Source: a virus. From it: DNA of 22,353 bases. The stretch lies in IMG/VR virus record IMGVR_UViG_3300047667_001315, positions 1 through 22,353 of that record; one strand, given 5' to 3'. Of the stretch, positions 2,965-19,957 are shown in pieces. The number at the start of each line of letters is the position of its first letter. The stretch's first letter is position 1. The notes below the pieces were generated by a model. That model saw only the letters and a list, made by a program, of their open reading frames with translations, had not been told where the DNA came from and searched no databases. Made by a program: the position numbers and the translations under genes.

Positions 2965-3702
2965 TTATTTTTCTATAAAAATTTCGTTCCAATTTACTTT
3001 AACTTCACCATTTTCTAACCTTTCAGATATTTTGATTTTTTTACCTGACAAATGCTTAGCTCTATTTCCTGCTACAGTATTTTCAGATGGTGAGAAATCA
3101 ATATATCTATCGTTATCTTTGGCGTACATATAACCTATAGCATCTACTTTAGCAGCAGCCATTGAAGCTATTTTACCAGTTAAGTCTACTGACTTCTCTG
3201 TGTATTCTTCCCCTTCTTTGGATAAGAGTTTATCTTTAACATGTCCAATTAAAATGATTGTATCACAATATTTAGCATATGCATCTATAATTCTAAAAAA
3301 TGCGTCTCGTAAATATTGATAACCAGCACCATTTGGTAATTTAGTTACGTTATCTCCTTTCCAATTCTTTCCCATTGGTTCTTGCTTATATAACTGCCCA
3401 GCAAAAGGAAGAACTATCTCTTCTAATACTGTAACTGTGTCAATAGCAATATATTTGTAAGGATTTTTTTTATGAGTTCCTTTATTCTCACTTAATAATT
3501 TTAAAGAAGTTTCTACATCTTTAAATGTTGAAACGTCAATCTTTAATGCATCTACATAATCTGAACCCTCTTCACAATCTATTATTAAACAATCATCTAA
3601 CTGACTCATGATTGTAGTTTTTCCTACTTTAGGTAAACCAAATAATAATAGACGTTTTGGGTCTAATCTTGTAGCTTTTATTTTTTCTGTCGGTAATTCC
3701 AC
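2965..3702 (-). CDS. Sak4-like RecA-fold ATPase (phage recombination)
   Basis: A 245-aa P-loop ATPase. Walker A is GLPKVGKT (residues 22-29), a Walker B-like strand YKYIAIDTVT ends in Asp88, and IILIGHVKDK (about 149-158) matches the later sensor-like strand of the AAA_24/Sak4 family. These small RecA-core proteins help single-strand annealing and recombination in phages, together with the cognate SSB encoded next. The start is taken as the GTG at 3702-3700; no ATG occurs between it and the in-frame TAG at 3717-3715. An AT-rich inverted repeat lies just upstream (3715-3740). Length and motif order suit the family. Confidence 0.85.
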   Translation of the reverse strand: MELPTEKIKATRLDPKRLLLFGLPKVGKTTIMSQLDDCLIIDCEEGSDYVDALKIDVSTFKDVETSLKLLSENKGTHKKNPYKYIAIDTVTVLEEIVLPFAGQLYKQEPMGKNWKGDNVTKLPNGAGYQYLRDAFFRIIDAYAKYCDTIILIGHVKDKLLSKEGEEYTEKSVDLTGKIASMAAAKVDAIGYMYAKDNDRYIDFSPSENTVAGNRAKHLSGKKIKISERLENGEVKVNWNEIFIEK

Positions 3703-5800: not shown

Positions 5801-6979
5801 TTACTTTTTCATTTTAAGCAAACAATCTTCAACATTAACGCAATAAATAATATTAAAAGTGTCGTCTTGAAACATCAAGTTAAACCATTTTTCTTCTTGT
5901 GTACCTTTTGTAACAAATATAAATACATTTCCTATTTTATCACCGTCTTTACGTAATCTTCCTATTCTTTGTATAAAATCTTTAGTCTTACCATAATAAC
6001 TATGTAAAATAACATTAGCCAATTCATCTAAGTTAACACCTTGTGCTAATTTTTTAAATGAACCAATTACATTTATTACATTTGATTGAAAATCATTTTT
6101 TATTTTTTCATTAACGTTATCTTTATTTCTAGAGCTAACTACATTATCAGTTATTTCTAATAATGCACTTATAGAATTAGCAAATATAATACTTTTTCCT
6201 TTTAAATATTCAATTAATTTTAAAACTTCTTTCTTTTTTGAAGGTAAGTTATACAGAATTTCAGCACGTTTTTTGCTTGATTTTTTCATCATAAACTCAC
6301 TACCTTCTTCAAAATAAAAAGATTGATTAAACATTTTGTTCCAAAATTCATAGTTTTTATACTCTGTTGTTTGAAAAGGTTTTTTTAAACTACCTGCTGT
6401 AATATTCTTAGTTATAGTATCTAACTGATGAGAAATAACATAAACATTAATTTTACGTTGGACATTATCTAATTGAGCATCTTTTACTGTGTATGTGAAA
6501 CATATAGGTGCTACTGAGTCAAGATAATCTCCTTTAGTATAACCATTACTATATAATTTTTCTTTATCTATAGTTGCTGATAGACCAATTATAGCATCAA
6601 AAGTGTTATTATTATAAAACTCAAAATAAGATGGTGTTAAACTGTCATGTATTTCATCAGCAACAACTAAATCATATTTCTCAGACTCTAATTTATAAGC
6701 TGACTGATAAGTTCTATATTCAATTCTGTATCTAGTAAATAAATTAGTTTTATATACTTGATTATACAACTGAATTTGTTTAATTATTTCTTTTTTTCTA
6801 TCAGTAACTTCAAATAAAAATATAATTCTATTGTTGTCTTTCATACTATTTACAGCATGGAGAGCAACAAAGGTTTTACCAGAACCAGTAGACATTTCTA
6901 CAGTTCCTTTTTTACTTTGCGCTTTCCATGCTGAAAAAGCATCTAGACTTATTTCTTCTTTTTTTAAGTCTATTTTCAT
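5801..6979 (-). CDS. SF2 DNA helicase (DEAD/DEAH-like)
   Basis: A 392-aa superfamily 2 helicase. Motif I is STGSGKT (residues 30-36), motif II DEIH (108-111), motif III SAT (134-136) and motif VI QRIGRLRK (337-344). SIIFANS (about 263-269) is motif IV-like and GVNLDEL (314-320) motif V-like. The two RecA-like domains are complete. It resembles UvsW/RecG-like or restriction-helicase-like phage enzymes that remodel forks and recombination intermediates. The ATG lies 4 nt after the stop of the amidotransferase-like gene, so it follows the amidoligase cluster directly although it functions with replication. Confidence 0.9.
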   Translation of the reverse strand: MKIDLKKEEISLDAFSAWKAQSKKGTVEMSTGSGKTFVALHAVNSMKDNNRIIFLFEVTDRKKEIIKQIQLYNQVYKTNLFTRYRIEYRTYQSAYKLESEKYDLVVADEIHDSLTPSYFEFYNNNTFDAIIGLSATIDKEKLYSNGYTKGDYLDSVAPICFTYTVKDAQLDNVQRKINVYVISHQLDTITKNITAGSLKKPFQTTEYKNYEFWNKMFNQSFYFEEGSEFMMKKSSKKRAEILYNLPSKKKEVLKLIEYLKGKSIIFANSISALLEITDNVVSSRNKDNVNEKIKNDFQSNVINVIGSFKKLAQGVNLDELANVILHSYYGKTKDFIQRIGRLRKDGDKIGNVFIFVTKGTQEEKWFNLMFQDDTFNIIYCVNVEDCLLKMKK

Positions 6980-6983
6980 TTTT

Positions 6984-7709
6984 TTAATCCATTACTAAAG
7001 GCATTCTTATTTGTTTATTTTTTGTTTTTCTTTCTTCTTTTTCCCAATAAGGCATATTTTTAAAATTTTCTCCATGTTGGGGACAATTATCTCCAAGATA
7101 GCTAGTATTAGAAAAATATAAACCACTTAATTCATCGAATTCCCATTTACCTAACATACACAAAGGGTTGTTAAACTTTTTATTTATGTTAGGATACATA
7201 ATAGCAACTCTTGATGTTTGAATAAACAATGATATAGAAGAGGTATAGTCTTTTTTATTTAAATATTTAAGAATATTAGCCATATTTATATCTGATAAAA
7301 CATTTTTTACAAAAAGATATGTATCAGAATGATCTTTGTCATAACTATACTTTATAAAAGTACCATTATGTGACATTACTGGTTTCTTTACATACCCTTC
7401 TTCCTGAATTATTTCATCATGTTTATCAGAACACACGTAAGGATGACAATTTTCAACGTTTTTTTTACCAGCAGATACTTTACGTAAATGTATCATTAAT
7501 TCATCACCTGTTGAAGGGCGATGAGATTTAATTGCTAGTATAAAAGATTTTAAATTTAAGTATCCTTTTGAAATGTATATATCTGAATTTGGTTTTTTGA
7601 TAGAAAATCCAAACCCATCTTTGTTTCTTAAAGCATATGACCTAGATATAGATTTATACAGCTCAGAAGTTACTTTAGTACCTCTTTTTTTTACTATAAT
7701 TAAGCACAT
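6984..7709 (-). CDS. Class II (Ntn) glutamine amidotransferase-like protein
   Basis: A 241-aa Ntn-hydrolase of the GATase II fold. Cys2 directly follows Met, giving the nucleophile after Met removal. Other landmarks are DGFGF (31-35), HLRKVSAG (74-81), NCHP (87-90) and HNGTF (114-118). The fold releases ammonia from glutamine for an acceptor enzyme, or hydrolyses or transfers a gamma-glutamyl group. There is no synthetase domain, so it must act alone or with another cluster protein. It is the second class II enzyme here and differs from the 449-aa one, suggesting separate steps. It lies 5 nt downstream of the large amidoligase gene. Confidence 0.85.
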   Translation of the reverse strand: MCLIIVKKRGTKVTSELYKSISRSYALRNKDGFGFSIKKPNSDIYISKGYLNLKSFILAIKSHRPSTGDELMIHLRKVSAGKKNVENCHPYVCSDKHDEIIQEEGYVKKPVMSHNGTFIKYSYDKDHSDTYLFVKNVLSDINMANILKYLNKKDYTSSISLFIQTSRVAIMYPNINKKFNNPLCMLGKWEFDELSGLYFSNTSYLGDNCPQHGENFKNMPYWEKEERKTKNKQIRMPLVMD

Positions 7710-7714
7710 ATATT

Positions 7715-9289
7715 TTAAGTGTTTATTATTTCTCTAGTTCTAGTTGCATTATGTGAAACTTTTTCACTGTATTCTAAAAGTTCATTAGTTTTACCTGCAT
7801 TACCTTTAAACCTATTTTTTCTTTCTTCAAAATAATTAATAATATCTGTATGATTTACTTTAGTTTTACCATAAGTAAACGTTAAAATATCACTAATTGT
7901 TATATCATCTCTTTTAATTATCTCACTACTGTTGTTTTCAACATAGTTAACATAAGCCATACAAAATAACAACCAGTTTTTAATTTTTTTAAAATTCATA
8001 CTAGCACTATGTGGTCTAAATTCTAATGTAAATGGAACACCATTATTTAATCCATCTTTTTTAGGTTCAACATTTCTAGTATTAAAGTTGCAAGTAATAA
8101 GGTTTAACCATTTGTAACGATATAAATTTGCTAAAGGAACATTATGACTGTATCTGTCAGTATATCTGCCTCCAGGATGATTTATAAATCTATTTAAATT
8201 TTCACCTAACTCTCTATTTTTTACATGAGACATATTTGCCATATCTTTAAATAAAGCTTCCCATGCTAAAGCATAGCCATATTTGTCACCATGTTCACTA
8301 ATGTATTTTTTAAAGTCCCATTTTTTTAAAAAACCTGTATAATCATTAGTTCTTCTAGAAGGAGGAAATATTTCAAATATTTCTCTTTCTATTTGTAGTC
8401 CTAGTAAATAAGCATCAATAGTAAACTTTTCATTAAAATTAGCTCCACCTACATGTACATGTATACCACATTGCTTAGTAATGCTACAATATTCATGAAT
8501 TGTTTTAACACAACGATAAAGATTTGCTAATCCAGCATCTCCTTTTAAAACACCTGTTACATATTCACCACCATAAACATTACCATCTTCATCTCTTAAA
8601 GATCCATCATGTACAGCATCTAAGTTTAAAGAATTATGCTTATATTGCCAATCAGGTATTTTTCCTGAAATAGTTTCAATTTCTATACCAAAAGTATAGT
8701 CTAATCCCCCTGTACCAATAGTAGTGGCTGTTGAAACACCTAATTTAATAGCTTCTTTTTTAGTATATGAATCTGAAGAAGATGCAGAAAATTTAGTTTT
8801 TTTATATTGTACTTTATCTTTTTTGTCAGATACACATTCTTTTAATGGTTTTAAATATTCAGTATCTTTTAAACAAATTCCAAATTTTCTTTTAGATGCA
8901 ATAATTAGTGTTTCAAAAAATAATAATTCGTCTTGATTTCTACCAGGAATTAATTTACTAAACTTTTCTTCACCTATCTCACAACAAGCATCATTTCTAT
9001 CTGAAAAAATTAATTCTTTTCCGTCTTTTAAATAAATTTTAATCATGTCATTTTTATGATAATATTTGTTTTTATATTTTATACAGCTTTCTTCATCAAA
9101 TAACACACAACTTGGATATGAATAACCAAAATGGTTTTTTCTCATTATAATTAAAGGTGGGTTATTTTTAGTAGCATCATAGAAGATGCCATCTATAAGG
9201 ACGGCATCTTCTGATGATATTTTTCTACCTAAAGAATCAATTACTTTTGAATTTACTTTTTTTTTATTTTTAGACCTCTTTAGTTTCAT
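7715..9289 (-). CDS. Amidoligase (Amidoligase_2-type, GS-like COOH-NH2 ligase)
   Basis: A 524-aa protein. From about residue 198 it has the glutamine-synthetase-like amidoligase signature: YTFGIEIET (198-206), GGEYVTG (240-246), CGIHVHVGG (274-282), and LEFRPHS near 435 before a helical C-terminus. The acidic and His residues in these motifs bind metal and ATP in the family, which forms amide bonds between carboxylates and amines. The N-terminal 190 residues are separate, with short repeated Tyr-rich strands (LIDGIFYD, KNKYYHKND), perhaps a substrate-binding or carrier domain. It overlaps the upstream GATase gene by 20 nt. Large phage amidoligases of this layout are known (Iyer et al. family); the substrate is unknown. 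Confidence 0.85.
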   Translation of the reverse strand: MKLKRSKNKKKVNSKVIDSLGRKISSEDAVLIDGIFYDATKNNPPLIIMRKNHFGYSYPSCVLFDEESCIKYKNKYYHKNDMIKIYLKDGKELIFSDRNDACCEIGEEKFSKLIPGRNQDELLFFETLIIASKRKFGICLKDTEYLKPLKECVSDKKDKVQYKKTKFSASSSDSYTKKEAIKLGVSTATTIGTGGLDYTFGIEIETISGKIPDWQYKHNSLNLDAVHDGSLRDEDGNVYGGEYVTGVLKGDAGLANLYRCVKTIHEYCSITKQCGIHVHVGGANFNEKFTIDAYLLGLQIEREIFEIFPPSRRTNDYTGFLKKWDFKKYISEHGDKYGYALAWEALFKDMANMSHVKNRELGENLNRFINHPGGRYTDRYSHNVPLANLYRYKWLNLITCNFNTRNVEPKKDGLNNGVPFTLEFRPHSASMNFKKIKNWLLFCMAYVNYVENNSSEIIKRDDITISDILTFTYGKTKVNHTDIINYFEERKNRFKGNAGKTNELLEYSEKVSHNATRTREIINT

Positions 9290-10619
9290 CTATTTCTACT
9301 AATTTTAAAAATTCAGCAACGTCATGTTGTGTGACAACAAGCTCTTCTATAATTTTGTTATTATAGTTTGCATCATTTAAATGATTAATAACTTTTGAAA
9401 CACTAACATTTATATTATTTAGTAATAATCTTATTTCACTTACTGGTAACTCAACAAAACCATCATCTTCTTCATCATCATCTTCTTCTAAGAAATTATT
9501 TTCAAACGCTGGCTTATCGTTCTTCTTAGTTCCCAACAAGCCATTTCTCTTTTTTTCAATAAAATCCCAAAAGCTATTTGCAAAAGAACTATCAATAAAA
9601 ACTCTACGTTTAGTGATTGTTCCTGATAAATAAGTAGTTATTATAATAAATGTATTTAATTTATTATCAAAATAAGTAACAGTAGATACACGATTATCTT
9701 TACCTTTTTCAGTAATGATTTTGTCTTCTTCACCATTTTTATACTTATAAAGTATACCTCTTTTTCCTGGAATTTTTAAAGAACTAACTGGAATTTCATT
9801 TGAAATATCATGATAAAAAAGTGTTGTAGTAGATAATTTTAAATATTCTAAAATATCATCAACCATTTCAGGTACATTCTTGTAGTCTGTAAAATTAGCT
9901 AATGCATTAACTGTACTTATTCTTTTTGGAGAATTTATTAAAACAGTTTCACTTAAAATTTTACCATCTAGAATTTCATAATGTTTATTTACATCAAAAC
10001 TTTTAATGTCAACACAACCAATAGCTGCTAATGGTCCTTTTTCAGAAGAAATATACATTCCATCATCAATATAGCCATAATGCAAAGGACGCTCATAGTT
10101 TCTCCAGATATTTACAATATCTTTTTCATGTCTAGCGTCTCTCCATATTAATGCAGCAGCACCGTCAAAATCTTTAACAATATCTAAAGAGTTTACTTCA
10201 TTAATATAATGAAAGAAAATCTTAGAATCCATGTTAATATTTTTATCATCAAATCCTCTATTAGGAAATGCTTTGTTATAGTTTGATATTAAATATTTAT
10301 GATTTTTTAATGTGCCATTATGAGCACCTATTACATTACCAAATAAGAAAGGGTGAGCATTTTCAATAGTTTTTTCACCTAGGGTTGCTGCTCTAGTATG
10401 ACCAATAAACAAAGATGTTTCAACAGGTTCAAATGTTGGTAACATTTTTTCAGAAACTTCTCCTAATGTTTTTTCTAGTCTATTTTCAAAAACAATTGCT
10501 TTATTTTCATTATAAAAACCAGCAGAGTGCCTACCTCTGGTTTCGTTAGCATAAAATAATAATCTTAGTTTTTCTTTGTTAAACGGTTGTTTACCGCTAT
10601 ATCCTAATAATCCACACAT
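9270..10619 (-). CDS. Class II glutamine amidotransferase (GlmS/PurF-type domain) with C-terminal extension
   Basis: A 449-aa protein with a textbook N-terminal GATase II domain: MCGLLGY (Cys2 nucleophile), RGRHSAG (28-34), HTRAAT (74-79), NAHP (87-90) and AHNGTL (99-104), then DGAAALIW, a conserved Ntn strand. The GATase domain ends near residue 225. The remaining half has no SIS or synthetase domain that I can see; it includes an acidic run (EEDDDEEDD, near 390) and a helical C-terminus. It probably feeds ammonia or processes Gln amide for the ligases nearby. It overlaps the amidoligase gene by 20 nt and lies 3 nt after the stop of the cyclotransferase-like gene. Confidence 0.9.
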   Translation of the reverse strand: MCGLLGYSGKQPFNKEKLRLLFYANETRGRHSAGFYNENKAIVFENRLEKTLGEVSEKMLPTFEPVETSLFIGHTRAATLGEKTIENAHPFLFGNVIGAHNGTLKNHKYLISNYNKAFPNRGFDDKNINMDSKIFFHYINEVNSLDIVKDFDGAAALIWRDARHEKDIVNIWRNYERPLHYGYIDDGMYISSEKGPLAAIGCVDIKSFDVNKHYEILDGKILSETVLINSPKRISTVNALANFTDYKNVPEMVDDILEYLKLSTTTLFYHDISNEIPVSSLKIPGKRGILYKYKNGEEDKIITEKGKDNRVSTVTYFDNKLNTFIIITTYLSGTITKRRVFIDSSFANSFWDFIEKKRNGLLGTKKNDKPAFENNFLEEDDDEEDDGFVELPVSEIRLLLNNINVSVSKVINHLNDANYNNKIIEELVVTQHDVAEFLKLVEIDETKEV

Positions 10620-10622
10620 TTT

Positions 10623-11015
10623 TTATTTTTTTTCTGTAATTGGGTTAACAAAATCACCGTTATAAACAACAGTATTTCCTTGATCTTCATTAAAATATAA
10701 AGCAGCTTCATCAGTATTTCCATTTTCTAGAAGAACTGGTATCACTTCTCTTTTGTACCAACTTCCTTCATGGTTATTAGGATTGTATCCTTCTAATCCG
10801 TCTAAAGAAGATAAACCACTATCATCTACTTGGTATACTTCACCAACTATTTGACTAGTTTCTATATTTTTGTTTACAAACGGAAGACCACTTGTTGTAA
10901 GATGATATTTATTAACTGTTACTGCATTTCCTATAAAAGCAGCATTTATTTGTGTTAACAATCTATGATTACCTTTACTTTTTCGTAAAGTACCATATAC
11001 AAATACTTTATGCAT
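10623..11015 (-). CDS. Gamma-glutamylcyclotransferase-like protein
   Basis: A 130-aa protein of the GGCT/AIG2 fold. YGTLR at 7-11 is the substrate-binding loop, Glu75 in LDGLEGY (71-77) is the expected catalytic residue, and WYKREVIPV (86-94) is the conserved strand. The family releases 5-oxoproline from gamma-glutamyl amines or peptides. With ATP-grasp and amidoligase partners it could cleave, edit or protect a gamma-glutamyl linkage. It overlaps the ATP-grasp gene by 8 nt. The length is normal and all key residues are present. Confidence 0.9.
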   Translation of the reverse strand: MHKVFVYGTLRKSKGNHRLLTQINAAFIGNAVTVNKYHLTTSGLPFVNKNIETSQIVGEVYQVDDSGLSSLDGLEGYNPNNHEGSWYKREVIPVLLENGNTDEAALYFNEDQGNTVVYNGDFVNPITEKK

Positions 11016-12671: not shown

Positions 12672-13455
12672 GTTGTAATAATTTAATATTGTTTTCTTTA
12701 CATATATCTTTTGCCATCTCTGCATTATTTGTGTTAATGCAAGTTTGTATTTTTTCAGCAAACTGTTTAATTTCATTCTCTTCATTTACATAATCTATAG
12801 CAAGCATAGTTTGGTTAAAAGCCCATTCCATTAAATCTTCATTTACTAACCAAAAGTTACTTAATGTACGATACTCAAAACCATATTCAGTAAATCTAAA
12901 ACGACCTGCTTTACCATATACACGTTTACGATTTTCATCACTATCCATAATTACAGAAGGTACTCCTAAAAACAAATCCATTGCTTTAACTAAATCTTCT
13001 GTGACTTCTGGTGTGAACTTATTGTAGCTTATATGTATATGACCACCTGCATAACGTCTATTTGCCTCAGGCTCAACAGTTGGATTTTCCATTCTAGACC
13101 ATACATCATTATCTGGTGAACATCCAAACATAGCTCCTTGGTCAGTAGATAACTGTTCTTCAGTAAAAAGTATAGATGGTACAATTGCTATTTCATAACC
13201 TACTCTATTCTTAATAGTTTTTAAACAAAATGAAATTTCTCGTTTAAGTCTTCCAGCATCTCTAACTGGAGGGATATTAAACTCCACCATTACATTATCT
13301 TCTTGTAACGCATGACCATGCTCACTTATTGGAATAGGTTCTTCTTTAGTACCTCCAATCAAACCTTCTGCTGATACAGCATTACCTTTATTATCAACTA
13401 AGAAAACTTCAGGATCTGTACCAAAAGCTATAAACTCAACTTTTTTTTTACTCAT
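12658..13455 (-). CDS. phiEco32-like COOH-NH2 ligase type 2 (amidoligase)
   Basis: A 265-aa protein with the family's motif order: FGTDPEVFLVD (11-21), a first-domain Glu in DNVMVEFNIPP (53-63), GGHIHISYN (137-145) and FEYRTLSNFW (193-202). In this glutamine-synthetase-like family Glu and His residues bind metal and nucleotide, and the Arg-rich strand binds the acceptor. It catalyses ATP-dependent amide formation, probably with an amino acid or amine. The family name comes from phage phiEco32, where it also sits with amidotransferase and ATP-grasp genes. It overlaps the upstream unknown gene by 8 nt. Confidence 0.9.
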   Translation of the reverse strand: MSKKKVEFIAFGTDPEVFLVDNKGNAVSAEGLIGGTKEEPIPISEHGHALQEDNVMVEFNIPPVRDAGRLKREISFCLKTIKNRVGYEIAIVPSILFTEEQLSTDQGAMFGCSPDNDVWSRMENPTVEPEANRRYAGGHIHISYNKFTPEVTEDLVKAMDLFLGVPSVIMDSDENRKRVYGKAGRFRFTEYGFEYRTLSNFWLVNEDLMEWAFNQTMLAIDYVNEENEIKQFAEKIQTCINTNNAEMAKDICKENNIKLLQHVRV

Positions 13456-14128
13456 TATTAATAATTTTATAATTTTTATTATTAAAAGCGACTACACCGC
13501 TATTACTATGACATTCCTCAATATCTCTAATAGATTTCCATGTATCTTTAAAAACAACTCCATCTACTATTTTTAATAAAAGAGGCATCGAATTTCTTAT
13601 ATTAGCATTATCATATTTTTCTTGACTATCTGGCCATTTTTTTAAAAAATTAGATATTGTTGTATTTTCATACTTTAAACCAATTCTACTAAATAACAAA
13701 AAAGAACTTAATAAATATGGTTTTTTAGTCCAAGATTTATTAAACCTAATTAAAAGATGTTTAGTATCATCTGTTACAATAATTGTTGATTTTTTAAAAC
13801 CTAATTTATCTTCAATTTTATTTAAAAAAGATAATAAATTACTAGAATAATTATTCATATCTTCATTAATGTAAGACATTCCTAAATAATACCATAATTT
13901 ATTATGATATTTAGGTATAACTTTCCAAGTAAAACCATATTTAGTAACGGATTCTCCTACTTTTTTTTGGTATTGTCCCCAGAATACATCTTGAAAGTAA
14001 TCTTTACATCTTACTTTTTCAGTAAGAGCGTTACCTTTGTTATCACATAAAACAAGATTAGGTACTGGTGATGAAGTTTTATATGATTCAATAAGTGCTG
14101 AATTATTAGGCAATAAGCATAGATTCAT
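13448..14128 (-). CDS. Unknown conserved-looking protein in the amidoligase cluster
   Basis: A 226-aa protein, not recognised. Visible segments are NLVLCDNKGNALTE near the N-terminus (echoing the VDNKGNAVS strand of the neighbouring COOH-NH2 ligase), WKVIPKYHNKLWYYLG in the middle, HLLIRFNKSW followed by a hydrophobic helix (YLLSSFLLFSRIGL), and a charged C-terminus. The D-N-K-G-N-A-[LV] echo and the R-x-x-x-x-W-x-K-x-P helix could mean a diverged relative or partner of the amidoligases, but no metal-binding motif is intact. Overlaps of 8 nt and 23 nt with flanking enzyme genes make co-translation likely. Confidence 0.7.
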   Translation of the reverse strand: MNLCLLPNNSALIESYKTSSPVPNLVLCDNKGNALTEKVRCKDYFQDVFWGQYQKKVGESVTKYGFTWKVIPKYHNKLWYYLGMSYINEDMNNYSSNLLSFLNKIEDKLGFKKSTIIVTDDTKHLLIRFNKSWTKKPYLLSSFLLFSRIGLKYENTTISNFLKKWPDSQEKYDNANIRNSMPLLLKIVDGVVFKDTWKSIRDIEECHSNSGVVAFNNKNYKIINNE

Positions 14129-14807
14129 AAATTTTCATTTTTTCATTAATAATTTTATTGATTTTACTTACTGTTTCTTTATTAGCCCATGTATATTCAG
14201 GGTGACCTTGTATACACATACAGTTTGTTTTTGGATAAAAAACAATTTCGGGTTCTCTAATTACATCATTTTTATCAGAATAAGTTCTTAAACCAAGTCT
14301 AACATCTATACCGTTTTCTTCCATGTAATAAGTAGACAAAGGAACTTCACTTTGTGCAATAATTTCAAAATCCTCACCTTCTTTTAAATCAAAAAATGGA
14401 TTCATCATTTGATGATGTGTACTTGTCATTAAATGCACTTCTCCATCATTAAATTTAATTTTATGATCTTTACCGTGATTTTCAACATCTTGAATCAACC
14501 TACCACCATTCATTACTGTAAGTAATTGAGCACCTCTACATATACCTATCATAGGTATATTATTAATCATTCCTGTTCGATATGCATTGATATCAACAAG
14601 TTCAGCATTAGGTCCCATTGGTCTAGTTCTGGTATTTTCTAACTGATTATACAATGATGGATTAACATCAGCACCTCCTTGAAAAATAATCAAATCACAA
14701 TCTTCAATTTTATCTGCATGTTCTGTATTTGGTAACCACCCAATAAGTTCTTTTGAAGTATATTTAGTTGTTCTAGGACAAAATACTCTTATTTTTTTAT
14801 TTGACAT
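14106..14807 (-). CDS. Class I glutamine amidotransferase-like / C26 gamma-glutamyl hydrolase
   Basis: A 233-aa protein with the class I GATase / peptidase C26 triad. GICRGAQL (88-95) puts the nucleophile at Cys90, and GHPEY (201-205) supplies His202 and Glu204. GGADVNPSLY (44-53) is typical of the gamma-glutamyl-gamma-aminobutyrate hydrolase (PuuD-like) branch. These enzymes cleave gamma-glutamyl amide bonds or release ammonia from glutamine. With a cyclotransferase-like enzyme also present, the cluster appears able both to make and to break gamma-glutamyl bonds. It overlaps the next gene by 23 nt and the previous one by 19 nt. Confidence 0.88.
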   Translation of the reverse strand: MSNKKIRVFCPRTTKYTSKELIGWLPNTEHADKIEDCDLIIFQGGADVNPSLYNQLENTRTRPMGPNAELVDINAYRTGMINNIPMIGICRGAQLLTVMNGGRLIQDVENHGKDHKIKFNDGEVHLMTSTHHQMMNPFFDLKEGEDFEIIAQSEVPLSTYYMEENGIDVRLGLRTYSDKNDVIREPEIVFYPKTNCMCIQGHPEYTWANKETVSKINKIINEKMKIYESMLIA

Positions 14808-15400
14808 AATAGTTTTTTAATATTTTTAATATTTTTTGTGTCTAATGCTGAAGATATTTTATTTTTAACATCTTCAGGTATTTCATTATTAAATAATGAG
14901 TCTATTTTTTTGTATTTTTTAAAGTTTTTACTATAGTCTTTTAAATAACATTTAGGTATTATAGTATTTTCAAGATAACTTTGATTATTACTGTAATGTG
15001 CTAAAATTAGTTTTTCCCAATTAGTTAATGTTGGAAAATTATATTTTATCCATGTTATTGTAGATAATATTGATTTACGTTTTAACATTAAATAATTTAC
15101 TAAAACTAAAGTTATTTTAAATGATAGTTGAGTATGTTCTTTTTTATAAATATTAACACTAACTCCATCATAAAAACATTTTAAATCTATACTACATAAA
15201 AACGAAACCCATTCTATTGTTATTTTGTCATCAGGTACAATAATTTCAACAACTGTATTTTCATTAGAAACCTCATTGATAGATGGTAATTTCTTTGAAA
15301 AAAAATTATTAATTGTTTTGTTATTGTAATATAAAATAGGCTCTAATAGTAACTCTTTTTTAACTTCATCAAATACAGTAATTACTGATTCTTTTTCCAT
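14789..15400 (-). CDS. Unknown protein, first gene of the amidoligase cluster
   Basis: A 203-aa protein, not recognised. It is Lys/Asn/Ile-rich and mixed alpha/beta: strands such as VVEIIVPDDKITIEW (about 50-64), VSVNIYKKE, then a hydrophobic segment (FKITLVLVNYLML, about 93-105), and a charged helical C-terminus. There is no signal peptide. It follows the hairpin after the polymerase gene and overlaps the C26-like gene by 19 nt, so it appears to open the cluster. Strand-then-helix organisation loosely resembles the unknown protein at 13448-14128; this is only an impression. Confidence 0.65.
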   Translation of the reverse strand: MEKESVITVFDEVKKELLLEPILYYNNKTINNFFSKKLPSINEVSNENTVVEIIVPDDKITIEWVSFLCSIDLKCFYDGVSVNIYKKEHTQLSFKITLVLVNYLMLKRKSILSTITWIKYNFPTLTNWEKLILAHYSNNQSYLENTIIPKCYLKDYSKNFKKYKKIDSLFNNEIPEDVKNKISSALDTKNIKNIKKLLCQIKK

Positions 15401-15414
15401 ATTATTTAAGTAAA

Positions 15415-15446
15415 TTAAGAGAGAGCTTTTAAACTCTCTCTCTTAA
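15415..15446 (-). terminator. Terminator-like hairpin after the DNA polymerase gene
   Basis: On the minus strand TTAAGAGAGAG pairs with CTCTCTCTTAA as an 11-bp stem with a loop of about 10 nt. It begins immediately after the polymerase stop codon (15449-15447) and ends 15 nt before the next ATG. The trailing sequence is only weakly T-rich (TTT), so termination may be partial, or the hairpin may set the mRNA 3' end. Confidence 0.65.
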
Positions 15447-16421
15447 TTAAAATAAAGTTAATTGTTTATTTTCAACAGCATTAATTATTTTCCAGCATTC
15501 TTTAATGTAATACTGCCTATTAATACAATCACTGTATTTATTTGGGTTATTAATATCGTTTAATATTATAACCCCATATCCTGCTTCTATTGCATGTAAA
15601 CGATTATCTTCATGATGTTTATAAAAACCATTACCATTTTTAGAAATTAAGTATCTGTTTGTTTTTTGAAGCTTATTAACACCTTTTACAGTATGTTCTT
15701 CAGCCGTCCAACCTTTAGTAACACTAAAAGCTTTTATAAAATCCCAAGCATCTCCTTTTTCAATTGTTTCGTCAATTGGTATGTTTTTTATAAAATAATT
15801 AAAAACTGATTTACGTACTATTTTCATAGATTGGTCTTTGTGCCAGTCTCTTTCTATCTCAAAGCTACCTTTACATTTTGTATCACCATTCGTATATTCA
15901 GCAATATAATTATTTACATCACGTATTATCATTTTAGAATACTCAGCGTACTCTAGTTCTAAATTAGTAAGTTTTTCCCATGAATTACATATATTAATAA
16001 GTTTATCATAGTATTCTTTTTTAATTTTAACAGTAACACCATCTGTATTGACTTGTAACATTGTCAAGTTAGGTATATTGTCTACCAACTTTTCAGCCAA
16101 CATTGTTAAAAGTAATTGTCCGTTAATAGTTATGTCCATAGTAAATTTAGGATCATACAGAAAACTGTACACATCATTAGATTTACCATAAGCACCATTT
16201 AATGCAATTTTTAATCCATAGTTTTCAGGAGTTCCTTTTGCATGTTTTTTTCTTTCCTCATAAAGGTTTTTATAAACACCACAAAATTTTAATCCTAAAT
16301 GCTTTGGATAAAAGTTATTAGATATTGCTAAGTTAGGATAATAACTTTTTACATCAATATCTACAATTATTTCAGTTTCGGAGTTTTCATAAACCCCAGG
16401 TTTTATACAACCATGTATACC
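15447..16421 (-). CDS. DNA polymerase family B, exon 2 (polymerase domain)
   Basis: Codes for 324 residues from the GGT codon at 16421-16419 to TAA at 15449-15447. It begins GIHGCIKPGVY, then has motif A DIDVKSYYPN, motif B KIALNGAYGKS and motif C VNTDGVTV, in family B order. Motif C has Asn for the first Asp, a form I associate with some phage PolBs. Without splicing this part lacks a proper start: a TAG precedes it, and the first in-frame GTG (16172) would cut off motifs A and B. The C-terminus ends in QLTLF, close to the bacterial beta-clamp-binding pentapeptide. Joined to exon 1 (19109-19957) it gives 607 aa. Confidence 0.85.
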   Translation of the reverse strand, partial: GIHGCIKPGVYENSETEIIVDIDVKSYYPNLAISNNFYPKHLGLKFCGVYKNLYEERKKHAKGTPENYGLKIALNGAYGKSNDVYSFLYDPKFTMDITINGQLLLTMLAEKLVDNIPNLTMLQVNTDGVTVKIKKEYYDKLINICNSWEKLTNLELEYAEYSKMIIRDVNNYIAEYTNGDTKCKGSFEIERDWHKDQSMKIVRKSVFNYFIKNIPIDETIEKGDAWDFIKAFSVTKGWTAEEHTVKGVNKLQKTNRYLISKNGNGFYKHHEDNRLHAIEAGYGVIILNDINNPNKYSDCINRQYYIKECWKIINAVENKQLTLF

Positions 16422-16444
16422 CTACCACACTTAGTCACCTAAGC

Positions 16445-16951
16445 TTATTTAACAAAATTATAATGCATAAACGTTTGTTTATCTGTAGACTCACGACCAT
16501 GTGCTAAGTTTTGGATAATATCAATTGTTTTAAAACCAGCATCTTCAAAAGGTCTAATATATTTATTTGATGTACCATTAGAAGTAATTAGTTTACCATA
16601 GTTATGCTCACCAGGTTTTTCTAGCTCAACTATAACCATTTTTAAAAGTTTAGTAAAGTCATTGTTTTCTATTTTATCATCTTTAGCATATCCATAACCC
16701 ATTCCTGTATAATTATACAAAACACCAATATTACATCCTGATTGAAAATCACTAATACATATTGAACAATTTTTATAATTAAATCTACCATACATTGTCC
16801 AATTATGAAAACCTCTTGTTTCAGAATATTTAGGAGGTGTTTCAGGATCTATAAAGTCAGTATATTTTAATTTACTTGTTTCTTTACTATCACAGACTTC
16901 TTTTTTTACTTCTAAAGGTATTTCTTCACATGCTTTATTTTCTTTTATCAT
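16445..16951 (-). CDS. Intron-encoded protein of unknown function (3' cargo)
   Basis: A 168-aa protein, not recognised. The N-terminus is charged (KENKACEEIPLEVKKEV), followed by an aromatic/Gly-rich middle with Cys residues (FNYKNCSICISDF, YNYTGMGYGYAKDD). The C-terminal half carries LLKMVIVELEKP, then YIRPFEDAGFKTI. The last part has an alpha/beta flavour reminiscent of GNAT acetyltransferases, but without a visible acetyl-CoA loop. The ORF starts 27 nt after the intron P7 3' strand, and its stop abuts the GNRA hairpin before the 3' splice site. It therefore occupies the P9 region exactly and is intron cargo. It has no homing-endonuclease motif. Confidence 0.6.
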   Translation of the reverse strand: MIKENKACEEIPLEVKKEVCDSKETSKLKYTDFIDPETPPKYSETRGFHNWTMYGRFNYKNCSICISDFQSGCNIGVLYNYTGMGYGYAKDDKIENNDFTKLLKMVIVELEKPGEHNYGKLITSNGTSNKYIRPFEDAGFKTIDIIQNLAHGRESTDKQTFMHYNFVK

Positions 16952-16978
16952 ATTATTTTGTTAAATAGTTGTAGTCTG

Positions 16979-17453
16979 GACTGTCTCATCAACCTATTTA
17001 CATCTACATACAGAGTCTTGTTTATAGTTATCACAACCATTAAAACCTTTTCTACATGTATTTATTTTAGGCTGCTCGTTGTCAGTCTCTACGCCGTTTT
17101 GTAATTCTATACTATATTGTATTCTAGCAAGATTTTCACATTCTGTATAAGTAAAAATTTTACTATTTTGATGTAAAGTTCTAGCTGCTATTAATATAAC
17201 ATTATCAATTGACGGCACGGGATTGTCTTTTTCAACTATATACCCACAATGTTTTCTAGCATTACGATAATCAAACTTAACTATCCATCCATCTATTAAG
17301 GCTTTCCATAAGTCTCTAGATTCTACTATTTTTTGTTGTTTCATATTTAATTAATTAAGAGTTTCCCCGTTAGCATATATACCATTATTTTTGATGTATA
17401 CATACCCCTTACGGATTCCGAGTTGTTCAATGCACATTACTGTACAAGGGGGC
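16979..17453 (-). ncRNA. Group I intron catalytic core (P4-P8)
   Basis: Pairings read on the minus strand: IGS G-CCC at 17453-17450; a 10-bp hairpin 17405-17396 with 17382-17373; P4 ACGGG (17370-17366) with CCCGT (17221-17217); P5 TCTT (17360-17357) with AAGA (17229-17226); P6 TGCCGT (17217-17212) with ACGGCG (17097-17092), abutting P4; P7 GACTG (17087-17083) with CAGTC (16983-16979); P8 CAGCCTA (17074-17068) with TAGGTTG (16996-16990). CTAACGGGGAA and GACAATCCCGTG match, from memory, the P and Q elements of the T4 td intron. P3 is not settled; CTCG (17422-17419) with CGAG (17078-17075) is a weak candidate. Loops of P5, P6 and P8 are enlarged and carry an ORF. Confidence 0.75.
16994..17344 (-). 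CDS. ORF threaded through the intron core (uncertain)
   Basis: A 116-codon open frame from ATG 17344 to TAG 16996-16994. It runs through P5, the 3' strand of P4, P6, the 5' strand of P7 and P8, and its stop codon is part of P8. The predicted protein has a plausible start (RDLWKALIDGWIVKFDY), a middle NVILIAARTLHQ, and a Cys-rich tail (NTCRKGFNGCDNYKQ and SVCRCK) that might bind metal. An open frame of this length in AT-rich DNA is unlikely by chance, so it may be real, with the coding sequence using the enlarged loops. Ribosomes on it would disrupt the ribozyme, so translation and splicing would compete. Function unknown. Confidence 0.45.
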   Translation of the reverse strand: MKQQKIVESRDLWKALIDGWIVKFDYRNARKHCGYIVEKDNPVPSIDNVILIAARTLHQNSKIFTYTECENLARIQYSIELQNGVETDNEQPKINTCRKGFNGCDNYKQDSVCRCK

Positions 17454-17459
17454 AGTTTT

Positions 17460-17747
17460 TTAAATACCAAGATAGTTATTTTCATATGAATCTTCACAAA
17501 CTTCACAAAAAGCTTCGCCTGGTAAAAGATAATTACGACGACATCCTGTGCACATGGAAGAACTATTATCTATCCATTTAGGTTTAGTAAAATCATTTAC
17601 GTAACCTATTTTATTTTTTGGTATTTTACTTTGTAAGTCTTTTATCTTACTTTCTATAACATTTTTGATTTCAGATTTAATAAACTTGCTGGAAAGTTTA
17701 TGTTCCAGCAAGTTTATTTCTTTTTTTAAAATGTCTGTACTTTTCAT
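17460..17747 (-). CDS. Intron-encoded small protein with C-terminal zinc ribbon
   Basis: A 95-aa protein. The first 45 residues form a Lys-rich coiled coil (KKEINLLEHKLSSKFIKSE). The C-terminal part has MCTGCRRNYLLPGEAFCEVC, two C-x-x-C pairs 13 residues apart, a clear zinc-ribbon arrangement. Such small proteins usually bind nucleic acids or act as adaptors. It lies within the intron 5' to the core, and its stop codon directly precedes the internal guide sequence. It is separated by 1 nt from the upstream ORF. It could help intron RNA folding, but that is speculation. Confidence 0.65.
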   Translation of the reverse strand: MKSTDILKKEINLLEHKLSSKFIKSEIKNVIESKIKDLQSKIPKNKIGYVNDFTKPKWIDNSSSMCTGCRRNYLLPGEAFCEVCEDSYENNYLGI

Positions 17748-17748
17748 A

Positions 17749-18333
17749 TTAATTTCTTAATGAAGCACCTAACACAACCCACAAAGTAATCTCATTTTTT
17801 GAGCTAGGATTGTGAGAAGTCATTTTTCTTGTAGTTAAATGATCTAATGCATTTTCAACATAAGAATAATTAGTTGAATTAGTATTAGTACTCAATAACC
17901 TAAAAGCACAAGAGTCTTCTTGCTCATGAAGTACTAATACTTCTTTTACAATATATGCAATTACTTCATTTCGAAGATTATCTCTTTCTGGTAAAACTTT
18001 TATTAAATCATCAATTAGTCCTGAAATATTATATGTTTGATGAACACCACAGCTCATTTCTGTGTCTTCAGATAAAGTAATATTTTCTACTGATACTTCT
18101 TCACCATCAACTACAAAAATAATTTGATCTGATATAGAAATAGTTTCAATAATATTATTTGATGTACTTTCATCAGGTACAATAACCTCTTCTTCAAATA
18201 AAAGTTTACTATACTTTTGTGTTTTACCATTATCATTAATGATGGTAAAACGACTATTATTTTCTTCTAAAACCTCATAAGGCTTATCTACTGTTAAAGA
18301 AAATTTCTTCTTGTCTTTACAAATTACATTCAT
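17749..18333 (-). CDS. Intron-encoded protein with N-terminal SH3-like domain
   Basis: A 194-aa protein. The first 55 residues (FSLTVDKPYEVLEENNSRFTI, given partly; then DNGKTQKYS and LFEE) look like a small SH3-like barrel common in phage proteins, with the pattern L-x-x-x-K-x-Y-x-V. The rest is acidic (SISDQIIFVVDGEEVSVE), with helices (LIDDLIKVLPERDNLRNEV and IVKEVLVLHEQE). A similar barrel ends the 273-aa protein in the amidoligase cluster. Function unknown. It overlaps the preceding ORF by 4 nt (ATGA-type coupling) and lies 1 nt before the zinc-ribbon ORF, so the three genes form a mini-operon inside the intron. Confidence 0.6.
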   Translation of the reverse strand: MNVICKDKKKFSLTVDKPYEVLEENNSRFTIINDNGKTQKYSKLLFEEEVIVPDESTSNNIIETISISDQIIFVVDGEEVSVENITLSEDTEMSCGVHQTYNISGLIDDLIKVLPERDNLRNEVIAYIVKEVLVLHEQEDSCAFRLLSTNTNSTNYSYVENALDHLTTRKMTSHNPSSKNEITLWVVLGASLRN

Positions 18334-19094
18334 GCTTGTATTTTTATTTGTTTTTTAATATACCTTTTATTCAAAGGATCTAATATTTTACCTAATTTAG
18401 TGAATTTACCTAAATCGTACAAGTTAGTTCTTTCTTCAATAGAAATTAAATTTAGAAAAGGTGCTTGTAAATTATCATAATGTTTAAAAAATTCTTTATA
18501 ACATTCCCATTCTTTTTTTGTATTTATTGCAAATTTATAATAACTATTATAAAGCATCCCATTTCCAGATACTGTTTTTTCTTTGAACTTAGAATCATTA
18601 AAGTAATCTATAAAAAACTCTTCTGTAATTAAGAAAGGTGCTATGTTTTTATAATTATATCCACCAAGTTGTGCCATGCCATAACTAGGATAAGAGTTTA
18701 TAAATCCTCCATTTAATGAGTAGTCAGGCATTTTTTTACATTGCATTATTAAATATGCGCAAAACAACAAAGACCAGTTTGGTTTTTTGTGTTTTAACTC
18801 GTATATTCTTATAGTACAATCTGTTTCATCTTTAAATTCATCTCTAAGATATCTAAAATAGAGTTGATACATTCCTTTTTTATCACCAAAGATTATTTTA
18901 AAATTTTCATTTTCTTCTACTACATTAGCCTTAAATAAATCCTTAGCTATTTTTAATGAGTATCCTATTTTTGAATAAGTTTTTGGTATTGTTATAATAA
19001 AATCATGTTTATCTCCTCCTCTATTCATAAAATTATCTCCACATCTATTTTCTGTTAAATTATATGTAGAATTAGAATTATTTATTATGTTCAT
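18330..19094 (-). CDS. Intron-encoded protein of unknown function, first ORF
   Basis: A 254-aa protein, not recognised. The ATG at 19094 lies 2 nt after the TAG that ends the unspliced exon 1 frame; an internal ATG at 19028 (RGGDKHDF) is an alternative start. Features: strands with FIITIPKTYSKIGYSLKIAK, KIIFGDKKGMYQLYFRYL, CTIRIYELKHKKP, a hydrophobic segment (WSLLFCAYLIMQC), Gly/Tyr-rich loops (GMAQLGGYNYKN), and a Lys-rich end. There is no homing-nuclease motif. The sequence R-x-Y...K-K-P followed by a hydrophobic helix loosely echoes the unknown protein at 13448-14128. It may have entered with the insertion or been recruited into it. Confidence 0.6.
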   Translation of the reverse strand: MNIINNSNSTYNLTENRCGDNFMNRGGDKHDFIITIPKTYSKIGYSLKIAKDLFKANVVEENENFKIIFGDKKGMYQLYFRYLRDEFKDETDCTIRIYELKHKKPNWSLLFCAYLIMQCKKMPDYSLNGGFINSYPSYGMAQLGGYNYKNIAPFLITEEFFIDYFNDSKFKEKTVSGNGMLYNSYYKFAINTKKEWECYKEFFKHYDNLQAPFLNLISIEERTNLYDLGKFTKLGKILDPLNKRYIKKQIKIQA

Positions 19095-19108
19095 ATCTAA
19101 TTAAGTTT

Positions 19109-19957
19109 ACCCGTTCCAAAATCGTATTTAAAACCTTTATAAATGACACTATCTTTAATAGAGCCTTTTGTTTCTGAAATAATTGTATTTTTTAATTTAT
19201 TCAATAATGTACTAAACTCTTCACTTGCGTATTTAACATATGGAAGAATACAGTCATTAAAATTTATAGTATCTCTATGTGTTCTTAGCTGTTTAAGATC
19301 ATACATAGAAACATTTAATGCTTTAGACATAGAAGAAGCAAATATATCTTCTCCCATTCCCGCATCAGATTTGTTAATAACATCAATATTATACGTTTCA
19401 CTTATATCTTCTCTTAACTTTATAATTTGTTTAGATTCGATAAAAAATTGATACGTTGAATCAACATCATTTTTATTGTATTTTAGTATTTCTGGAATTT
19501 GTTCTTCTTTAATAAAACTTGTATAATGTAATGGCAAGTCTTGTACTTTTTTCCATCTCATAGCAACTTGTAGTTTTTTCAAACTAGTCATTCTTGCTTT
19601 ATTATTAAAGTGCCAAATTCTAAACAAATCAACTTGTTTAATAAGAACGTTTTTCATTTTAATTGCTGGAAATAGTTCTTTTATTATACGTTGTGATTCT
19701 CTGTACAGTTCCTCAACTGAACAATGTTTATGAGTTAGTAAATAATGCAGTAAAGGGTAATCATAATTAATATTATTAAACCCTATTAATACATCACATG
19801 ATTCTAAAAATTTGATATACTCTTTAATATCATTTCTAGATTTGTGTATTACAAACTCTCTGTATTCACCTGTATTTATATTATAAAATATACCAGAGTG
19901 AAAATTTGGAAATTGTTCTAAATCATATACCCATGCATTATCTTTAAATAATGACAT
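19109..19957 (-). CDS. DNA polymerase family B, exon 1 (3'-5' exonuclease domain)
   Basis: Codes for 283 residues from ATG 19957 to the GGT at 19111-19109. Exonuclease motifs are intact: Exo I YDLEQ (Asp12, Glu14), Exo II FNNINYD (Asn62, Asp66) and Exo III YNKND (Tyr160, Asp164). It ends with KYDFGTG, the approach to the conserved GTGG[IL]HG region before polymerase motif A. Unspliced, the frame continues KLN and stops at TAG (19099-19097), giving a 286-aa stand-alone exonuclease. Spliced to exon 2 (15447-16421) it encodes a 607-aa proofreading replicative polymerase. It starts 17 nt after the stop of the small coiled-coil protein gene. Confidence 0.88.

Follow-up and report, generated by a model that had tools for sequence, protein, structure and literature searches.

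The window analysed here is a 22,353-nucleotide (nt) stretch of viral DNA, positions 1 to 22,353 of IMG/VR record IMGVR_UViG_3300047667_001315, and the element in question is an insertion that divides its DNA polymerase gene, PolB. The gene lies on the minus strand in two parts, 19957-19109 and 16421-15447, with 2687 nt in between; all elements of the window described below are on this strand. The upstream part (exon 1, 19109-19957, 283 codons) encodes the exonuclease portion and ends in FGTG at the protein level and GGGU at the RNA level. The downstream part (exon 2, 15447-16421, 324 codons and a stop) begins with GIHG and has polymerase motif A at codon 21. With 19957-19109 and 16421-15450 joined, the frame is free of stops over 607 amino acids (aa) and FGTGGIHG is restored. 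The phage DNA polymerase profile PHROG 1252 matches exon 1 over profile positions 50-332 (E 2.3e-63) and exon 2 over positions 333-654 (E 2.9e-99), running on from 332 to 333 over the join with neither gap nor overlap. A preliminary description of the window had placed the split at GTG|GIHG and proposed that removing 19108-16422 restores the frame; the 607-codon join and the continuity of the profile show this junction to be exact to the base. A TAG directly precedes exon 2 in its frame, and the first ATG, GTG or TTG of exon 2 is codon 84, past motif A. Between the window and a related record, L002, the ratio of nonsynonymous to synonymous change (dN/dS) is 0.14 and 0.12 for the two exons, at dS 0.77 and 0.92; the exons on both sides of the insertion are thus under purifying selection. 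Given the TAG, the late start codon and this selection, a functional polymerase needs the insert removed.

The insertion site is empty in some relatives and filled in others. PolB relatives were gathered by searching a viral collection with the exons and were then compared locally. PolB is contiguous at exactly the codon pair split in the window in ten loci (L008, L009, L010, L012, L013, L014, L015, L018, L030 and L043), a count that omits loci with PolB gaps elsewhere, with matches falling short of the junction or with one part missing. In L008, the closest intronless relative, PolB is a single 601-aa open reading frame (ORF) in a gene neighbourhood similar to that of the window. PolB of L049 and L051 is also contiguous at this codon pair, and in both an intron of the family described below sits elsewhere. 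Two loci have the identical PolB site filled, L002 (82% identical) by 3850 nt and L007 (58 and 64% identical) by 2010 nt, and both genes join in frame. L001, L003 and L006 all come from a single contig with the arrangement of the window; they are 100% identical to it and therefore add no independent evidence. The PolB matches of L016, L017, L019, L021, L033 and L034 have gaps elsewhere in the gene, possibly introns or inteins. In L011 the gene (6946-10904) is in at least four pieces through other insertions, one of which is a group I intron confirmed by Rfam (8142-8422, 93.1 bits); this record also has two GIY-YIG genes and an ORF that resembles LAGLIDADG by eye.

The insert itself, AAACTTAA...GTGTGGTAG at 16422-19108, has the parts of a group I intron. 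The exon ends in U and the intron in G. An internal guide sequence GCCC (17450-17453), the 3' strand of P1, pairs with the exon GGGU, and next to it a P10 strand ACU (17454-17456) pairs with GGU of exon 2. It is followed by a P2 hairpin, UGUACA-GUAA-UGUGCA (17431-17446), and the P3 5' strand CUCG (17419-17422). The P4 5' strand ACGGG (17366-17370) pairs with CCCGU at 17221-17217 and is invariant in the family; its partner belongs to the core element GACAATCCCGTGCCGTCA (17210-17227), which combines the P4 3' and P6 5' strands and serves as the family marker. Downstream lie the P6 3' strand (17093-17097), the P7 5' strand GACUG (17083-17087), the P3 3' strand CGAG (17075-17078), the P8 5' strand (17069-17074), the P8 3' strand (16990-16995) and the P7 3' strand CAGUC (16979-16983). 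The 3' end (16422-16443) consists of a CUUAG-GUGA-CUAAG hairpin (16443-16430), the P9 3' strand UGUGGU, a final AG and the terminal G. A hairpin with the same loop type stands at the 3' splice site of L002 and L007 as well, where the stems differ (judged by eye in these two). Every boundary feature given in the preliminary description (exon-final U, intron-final G, a guide pairing with both exons, a GNRA hairpin) was found; what it left unmentioned is how far downstream of the 5' splice site the guide is: 1655 nt in the window, 10 nt in L007 and 2211 nt in L002.

Comparison of the three introns at this site showed conserved islands with ORFs between them. The islands are the guide with P2 and P3, then ACGGGGAAAC, GACAATCCCGTGCCGTCA, CGGYGTAGAGACT and GAGAYAGTCC. 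By eye they match the blocks for P4, P6 and P7 in the Rfam consensus, as seen in the confirmed intron of L011, and the core strings ACGGGGAAA, CAAUCCCGUG, GUAGAGACU and AGUCC are present, again comparing with the consensus by eye. Two of the islands used as search patterns yielded 10 stretches and then 29 viral stretches, the window being counted once with its identical contig. The P4 element is present in 26 of these 29 rows, the CGGYGTAGAG element within 900 nt in all 29 and the AGTCC element in 27; as core strings, the first (ACGGGGAAA) is in place in 26 of 29, the third (GUAGAGACU) in 29 and the fourth (AGUCC) in 27.

The helices were examined in an alignment of P4 to P8 with the ORFs cut out, holding 17 rows (of the 29, 2 were dropped as duplicates and 10 because not all four segments were found; for L002, two strands were taken from beyond its LAGLIDADG ORF). 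Paired cells make up 97.5% of 442, compared with 92.8% after shuffling (0 of 500 shuffles as high) and 27-44% when the strands are slid, and seven pairs change on both sides. In the 22 rows where both P7 strands were found, all 110 cells of this helix are paired. It occurs in matched combinations, GACUG/CAGUC in 7 rows, GACUA/UAGUC in 13 and GGCCA/UGGUC in 2, with base-pair changes that include UA to CG and AU to GC; no block shuffle in 10000 was as high (17 of the 22 rows). P3 and P1 are each paired in 44 of 44 cells over 11 introns, a value reached by 0 of 20000 shuffles for P3 and by 51 of 20000 for P1. P1 keeps a U-G at the 5' splice site while its sequence varies, GGGU/GCCC in the window and CCGU/GCGG or GGCGU/GCGCC elsewhere. 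P10 changes in step: L007 pairs exon-2 GGA with UCU, where the window and L002 have GGU and ACU. A P2 hairpin of 6-8 bp with differing stems is found in 11 of 11 introns, a count that stands without a shuffle control.

Several points weigh against a group I assignment. First, the window intron has no match to the Rfam model Intron_gpI (RF00028), neither at the gathering score nor at E values up to 5, so that the covariance-model check proposed in the preliminary description came out negative. The model is likewise unmatched in L007 (gathering score only) and, at gathering and relaxed scores, in L002 and six other loci of the family, one of which, L046, has a compact P4-P9 half of the core. Because these introns escape it too, the negative is read as insensitivity of the library model. 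Second, the P1 and P3 strands of the 11 introns were chosen by eye, and except in PolB and in phi14:2 (below) the 5' splice site was partly read from P1, so these counts lean towards the structure. Third, P4 and P6 are nearly invariant and give no covariation; among the 17 introns, P5 has 6 unpaired cells and P8 has 5, and P5 was re-registered after a wrong first register (51 of 68 cells). Fourth, the intron set was gathered with core motifs, and 12 of the 29 rows are outside the P4-P8 alignment. Finally, a P1 loop of 1.6-2.2 kb could slow splicing or require other factors. Separately, the weak Rfam matches of the window intron, a hairpin hit by microRNA models and three further families, are at chance level and were set aside.

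On balance, the exact join, the empty sites, the covarying core helices and the correct splice-site bases support the proposed group I identity, and no other reading of the sequence comes close to that of a PolB gene split by such an intron. We put at about 0.93 the probability that the window PolB is interrupted at FGTG|GIHG by a group I intron, of a gene-carrying family that Rfam does not recognise.

Three other explanations were weighed. The one that survives best, itself very improbable, is a degenerate intron that no longer splices, in a dead polymerase gene, or else an assembly error. The Rfam negative and the very large loops would fit it, but both exons are under purifying selection and the core is intact. 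In addition, the same site is filled with different contents in L002 and L007, and a separate contig, L003, shows the arrangement of the window. Slightly less probable still is a split polymerase, in which two ORFs are translated separately and the subunits then assembled. Two separate ORFs do exist, but the downstream one is preceded by TAG and its first start codon, 84, lies beyond motif A, the break falls within a conserved motif, the L008 gene is a single ORF, and a group I core is present. Group II introns have the ends GUGYG...AY, which the AAACU...GUAG of the insert does not fit. An intein or a group II intron, both of which occur in phage replication genes (excerpt of PMC7886860), can practically be dismissed, since the frame meets a stop at the fourth codon past the junction and so leaves no intein, the five ORFs of the window intron have no Hint or reverse-transcriptase match, and the group I elements P1 to P10 are present.

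The group I intron carries five ORFs, most of them in its loops. The P1 loop holds three, between the 5' splice site and the guide: 254 aa (18330-19094), with the homologue B250 in the L002 intron (32% identity, E 5e-24); 194 aa (17749-18333); and 95 aa (17460-17747), with the homologue B106 in L002 (E 1.6e-5). The 254-aa ORF starts 2 nt past the TAG that ends the unspliced exon-1 frame, and in L002 this stop and the cargo start overlap (ATGA). An ORF of 116 aa (16994-17344) reads through the core itself, with P4/P6 read as DNPVPS, P6/P7 as NGVE and P3/P8 as EQP; the same frame, with DNPVPS then NGVE or HGVE, is also open in L002, L007, L045, L048, L049, L050, L051 and L052. The fifth ORF, 168 aa (16445-16951), is in the P9 loop. 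The preliminary description's unknown genes between the polymerase fragments are indeed there; it had missed that they lie inside the intron, that the intron belongs to a family and that none of the cargo is recognisable as a homing endonuclease.

The cargo families recur at shifting positions. The L002 intron holds homologues of the 254-, 194-, 95- and 168-aa ORFs of the window and has four ORFs between the 5' splice site and the guide. In the window and L002, the P1 loop houses the 194-aa family, and P9, downstream of P7, houses the 168-aa family. L007 has members of both families between its P3 and P4 5' strands. In other introns the 194-aa family is found past P7 (L049, L051 and phi14:2) and the 168-aa family between the two P4 strands (L045). 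Within the 95-aa ORF there is a 16-bp perfect inverted repeat (17679-17718) that folds strongly (-24.2 kcal/mol over 76 nt, z -8.7); its L002 homologue (3616-3653) has an unrelated 12-bp inverted repeat (z -6.5) whose codons do not match by eye.

Two of the cargo proteins are predicted to be GNAT-like in fold. In the model of the 194-aa protein (pLDDT 87.7, pTM 0.63, from the 10 sequences of alignment A1), the N-terminal part is SH3/KOW-like (4iim, Z 7.5 over 50 residues), and residues 59-194 match mostly GNAT structures, best 5o7o (Z 9.6 over 117 residues). The model of the 168-aa protein rests on 5 sequences (alignment A2) and is of low confidence, with a mean pLDDT of 60.1; all 50 matches listed for it are acetyltransferases, with a best Z of 10.1. 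Foldseek found nothing at E 0.001 for the cargo models. GNAT proteins have an acyl-CoA loop, R/Q-x-x-G-x-G/A, and this motif was not seen by eye in the 194- and 168-aa alignments. For these two reasons the proteins are called GNAT-like in fold and not acetyltransferases. A Pfam scan of the non-endonuclease cargo ORFs gave none at the curated score; the 194-aa family comes near DUF6501 (22.0 bits in L049 and 21.5 in L007, with 23.8 needed). A search for known defence proteins returned one weak PADLOC match, DruE to the 95-aa ORF (E 0.027), and it was rejected.

Between the window and L002, the 194-, 254- and 168-aa cargo ORFs have dS of 0.76-1.0, like the exons, and dN/dS of 0.55-0.84, values that are rough at 37-40% identity. 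One might guess at a fast-evolving accessory role for the cargo, for example against host defence; a part in splicing would be another guess.

The cargo differs from what phage group I introns usually carry. No recognised endonuclease domain (Pfam LAGLIDADG, GIY-YIG, HNH or similar) was found in the five ORFs of the window intron, and the four ORFs of the L007 intron gave no Pfam endonuclease match. The L002 intron does have a LAGLIDADG_2 gene, between its P7 and P3 strands (E 8.6e-33). Among 43 whole records, selected through the core motif or through PolB exon 1, LAGLIDADG_2 occurs in three (L002, L055 and L070), each time within 0.4 kb of the marker; it thus adjoins the core in 3 of the 29 records that bear the marker. 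GIY-YIG is found in 9 of the 43 (7 over the cut-off), nearest to the marker at about 1.6 kb (L045) and 2.3 kb (L055), and HNH_3 in two, both without the marker. Neither GIY-YIG nor HNH_3 lies within 1.5 kb of the marker in any of the 43, in a record-wide scan that did not extend to other endonuclease families.

The link between the 194-aa family and the introns was followed in the same 43 records. The family profile, which was built from these records, matches 12 of them. Ten of the matches are long: nine of them (one being the identical twin of the window) lie no more than about 1 kb from the core motif, and one is about 5 kb off. The other two are short and N-terminal, at distances of 2.9 and 6.8 kb; the 14 records that lack the motif gave no match. 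A related family of small proteins (98 aa), which the window lacks, turned up at 18 loci, some of them near-duplicates, in a search by protein alone. Core elements surround the gene in 15 of the 18 (none in L077, L080 and L090), with the P4 element 22-68 nt upstream in 13 of the 15. The family of a 174-aa ORF in L002 is not bound to introns, since some of its members lie several kb away from any core seen. In named phage records, the 194-aa family was found in Cellulophaga phage phi14:2 (two records) and as one partial match in a Vibrio phage, and the 168- and 98-aa families had no relative at the limits used.

The family reaches beyond PolB. The core motif, searched with up to 3 mismatches, has a single copy in each of the 29 records and is absent from 14 other PolB-related records; the single copy per record holds though the host genes differ. 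The introns sit in PolB, DnaB, NrdA and other genes of crAss-like phages. In L052 the interrupted gene is a ribonucleotide reductase (Pfam PF02867, E 8.3e-12). In L045, L064, L065 and L069 the intron lies at the DnaB motif that is also interrupted in phi14:2, as judged by eye from the likeness of the first exons. Phage phi14:2 (NC_021806; Crassvirales; Steigviridae) carries the 194-aa family as g028. Removing 13150-15765 of its genome (2616 nt; 3015-5630 of L091) gives a DnaB of 369 aa whose Walker A motif (TANSKVGKSQ) is intact. The record annotates just the downstream part, the second exon, as DnaB and leaves the intron unannotated; a tblastn match of the window DnaB begins at 15766, the derived start of the second exon. 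The PolB annotation of the same phage joins two pieces.

Of the 35 records searched among the 43, 11 match the phi14:2 major head protein: six with the intron marker and five without it, that of L008 being one of the five (E 3.3e-96). The window, whose phage is probably related to the crAss-like phages, is too short to hold a crAss-like major head protein. The core marker also has four exact matches in bacterial genome contigs, none of them with other core elements, and these are attributed to chance. Two loci of the family show further features. L048 has two guide-P3 segments (389 and 2610) and one P4 element, possibly two introns in a row, and L052 has a tmRNA gene at 708-1042 (Rfam, 68.8 bits) on its phage contig.

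These introns can be set beside known systems. The core strings of the window resemble those of the T4 td-type introns, and both have an ORF that overlaps the core. A td-type intron has one endonuclease ORF in one loop; the family introns, unlike it, have several ORFs, in P1, P5-P8 and P9. The sister intron of L002 shares the site, the core and homologues of four cargo ORFs with the window intron and differs in its LAGLIDADG_2 gene and a fourth P1-loop ORF. The DnaB intron of phi14:2 has the same core and the same 194-aa cargo family; it differs in its host gene, in having this family downstream of P7, and in a guide only 10 nt from the splice site. As far as excerpts of the published accounts go, Delta and Zeta crAss-like phages have introns in PolB and other genes that were found mainly via endonuclease domains (PMC7886860; PMC10136315; PMC12386605), and cyanophage Pf-WMP3 has a group I intron in its polymerase gene with the HNH endonuclease I-PfoP3I (PMC3428280). 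By the same excerpts, the Pf-WMP3 and crAss-like Delta PolB introns are like the window intron in being group I introns of a phage polymerase gene; they differ in having an endonuclease ORF or in having been discovered through endonucleases, whereas the window intron has no recognised one and five other ORFs in several loops. Among the papers listed by full-text searches of open-licence literature, none has a title or abstract opening on group I introns whose cargo is GNAT-like or comprises several genes other than endonucleases. The polymerase intron is thus of a kind already known; what is new is the cargo-bearing, endonuclease-poor family.

The sequence suggests how such an intron would work. 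The transcript would fold into P1-P9, with exon-1 GGGU paired to the guide GCCC, and two transesterifications would remove the intron to give the mRNA of the 607-aa polymerase. Unspliced RNA would instead encode an exonuclease-only N-terminal fragment and, by coupling, the cargo, so that splicing and cargo translation would compete for one transcript. Splicing, autocatalysis, and translation and function of the cargo are here inferred. More tentatively, and with the odds somewhat against it, one class of group I introns in crAss-like phages may be a platform for gene cargo, the loops of the ribozyme housing dedicated, rapidly evolving proteins that are GNAT-like in fold and not endonucleases, with the balance of splicing and translation setting whether enzyme or cargo is made. 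If so, the cargo would move or be inherited with the intron, and the enzyme at stake would be a polymerase, a helicase or a reductase.

Because the family escapes Rfam and is mostly without endonuclease domains, PolB, DnaB and NrdA look broken in annotation, and the DnaB record of phi14:2 is an example of an essential gene that seems so. Since phi14:2 is in culture, it allows direct tests of splicing and of the expression and function of the cargo. The picture of the phage group I intron as a ribozyme with one homing endonuclease is stretched by this family, in which several gene families repeatedly occupy the loops.

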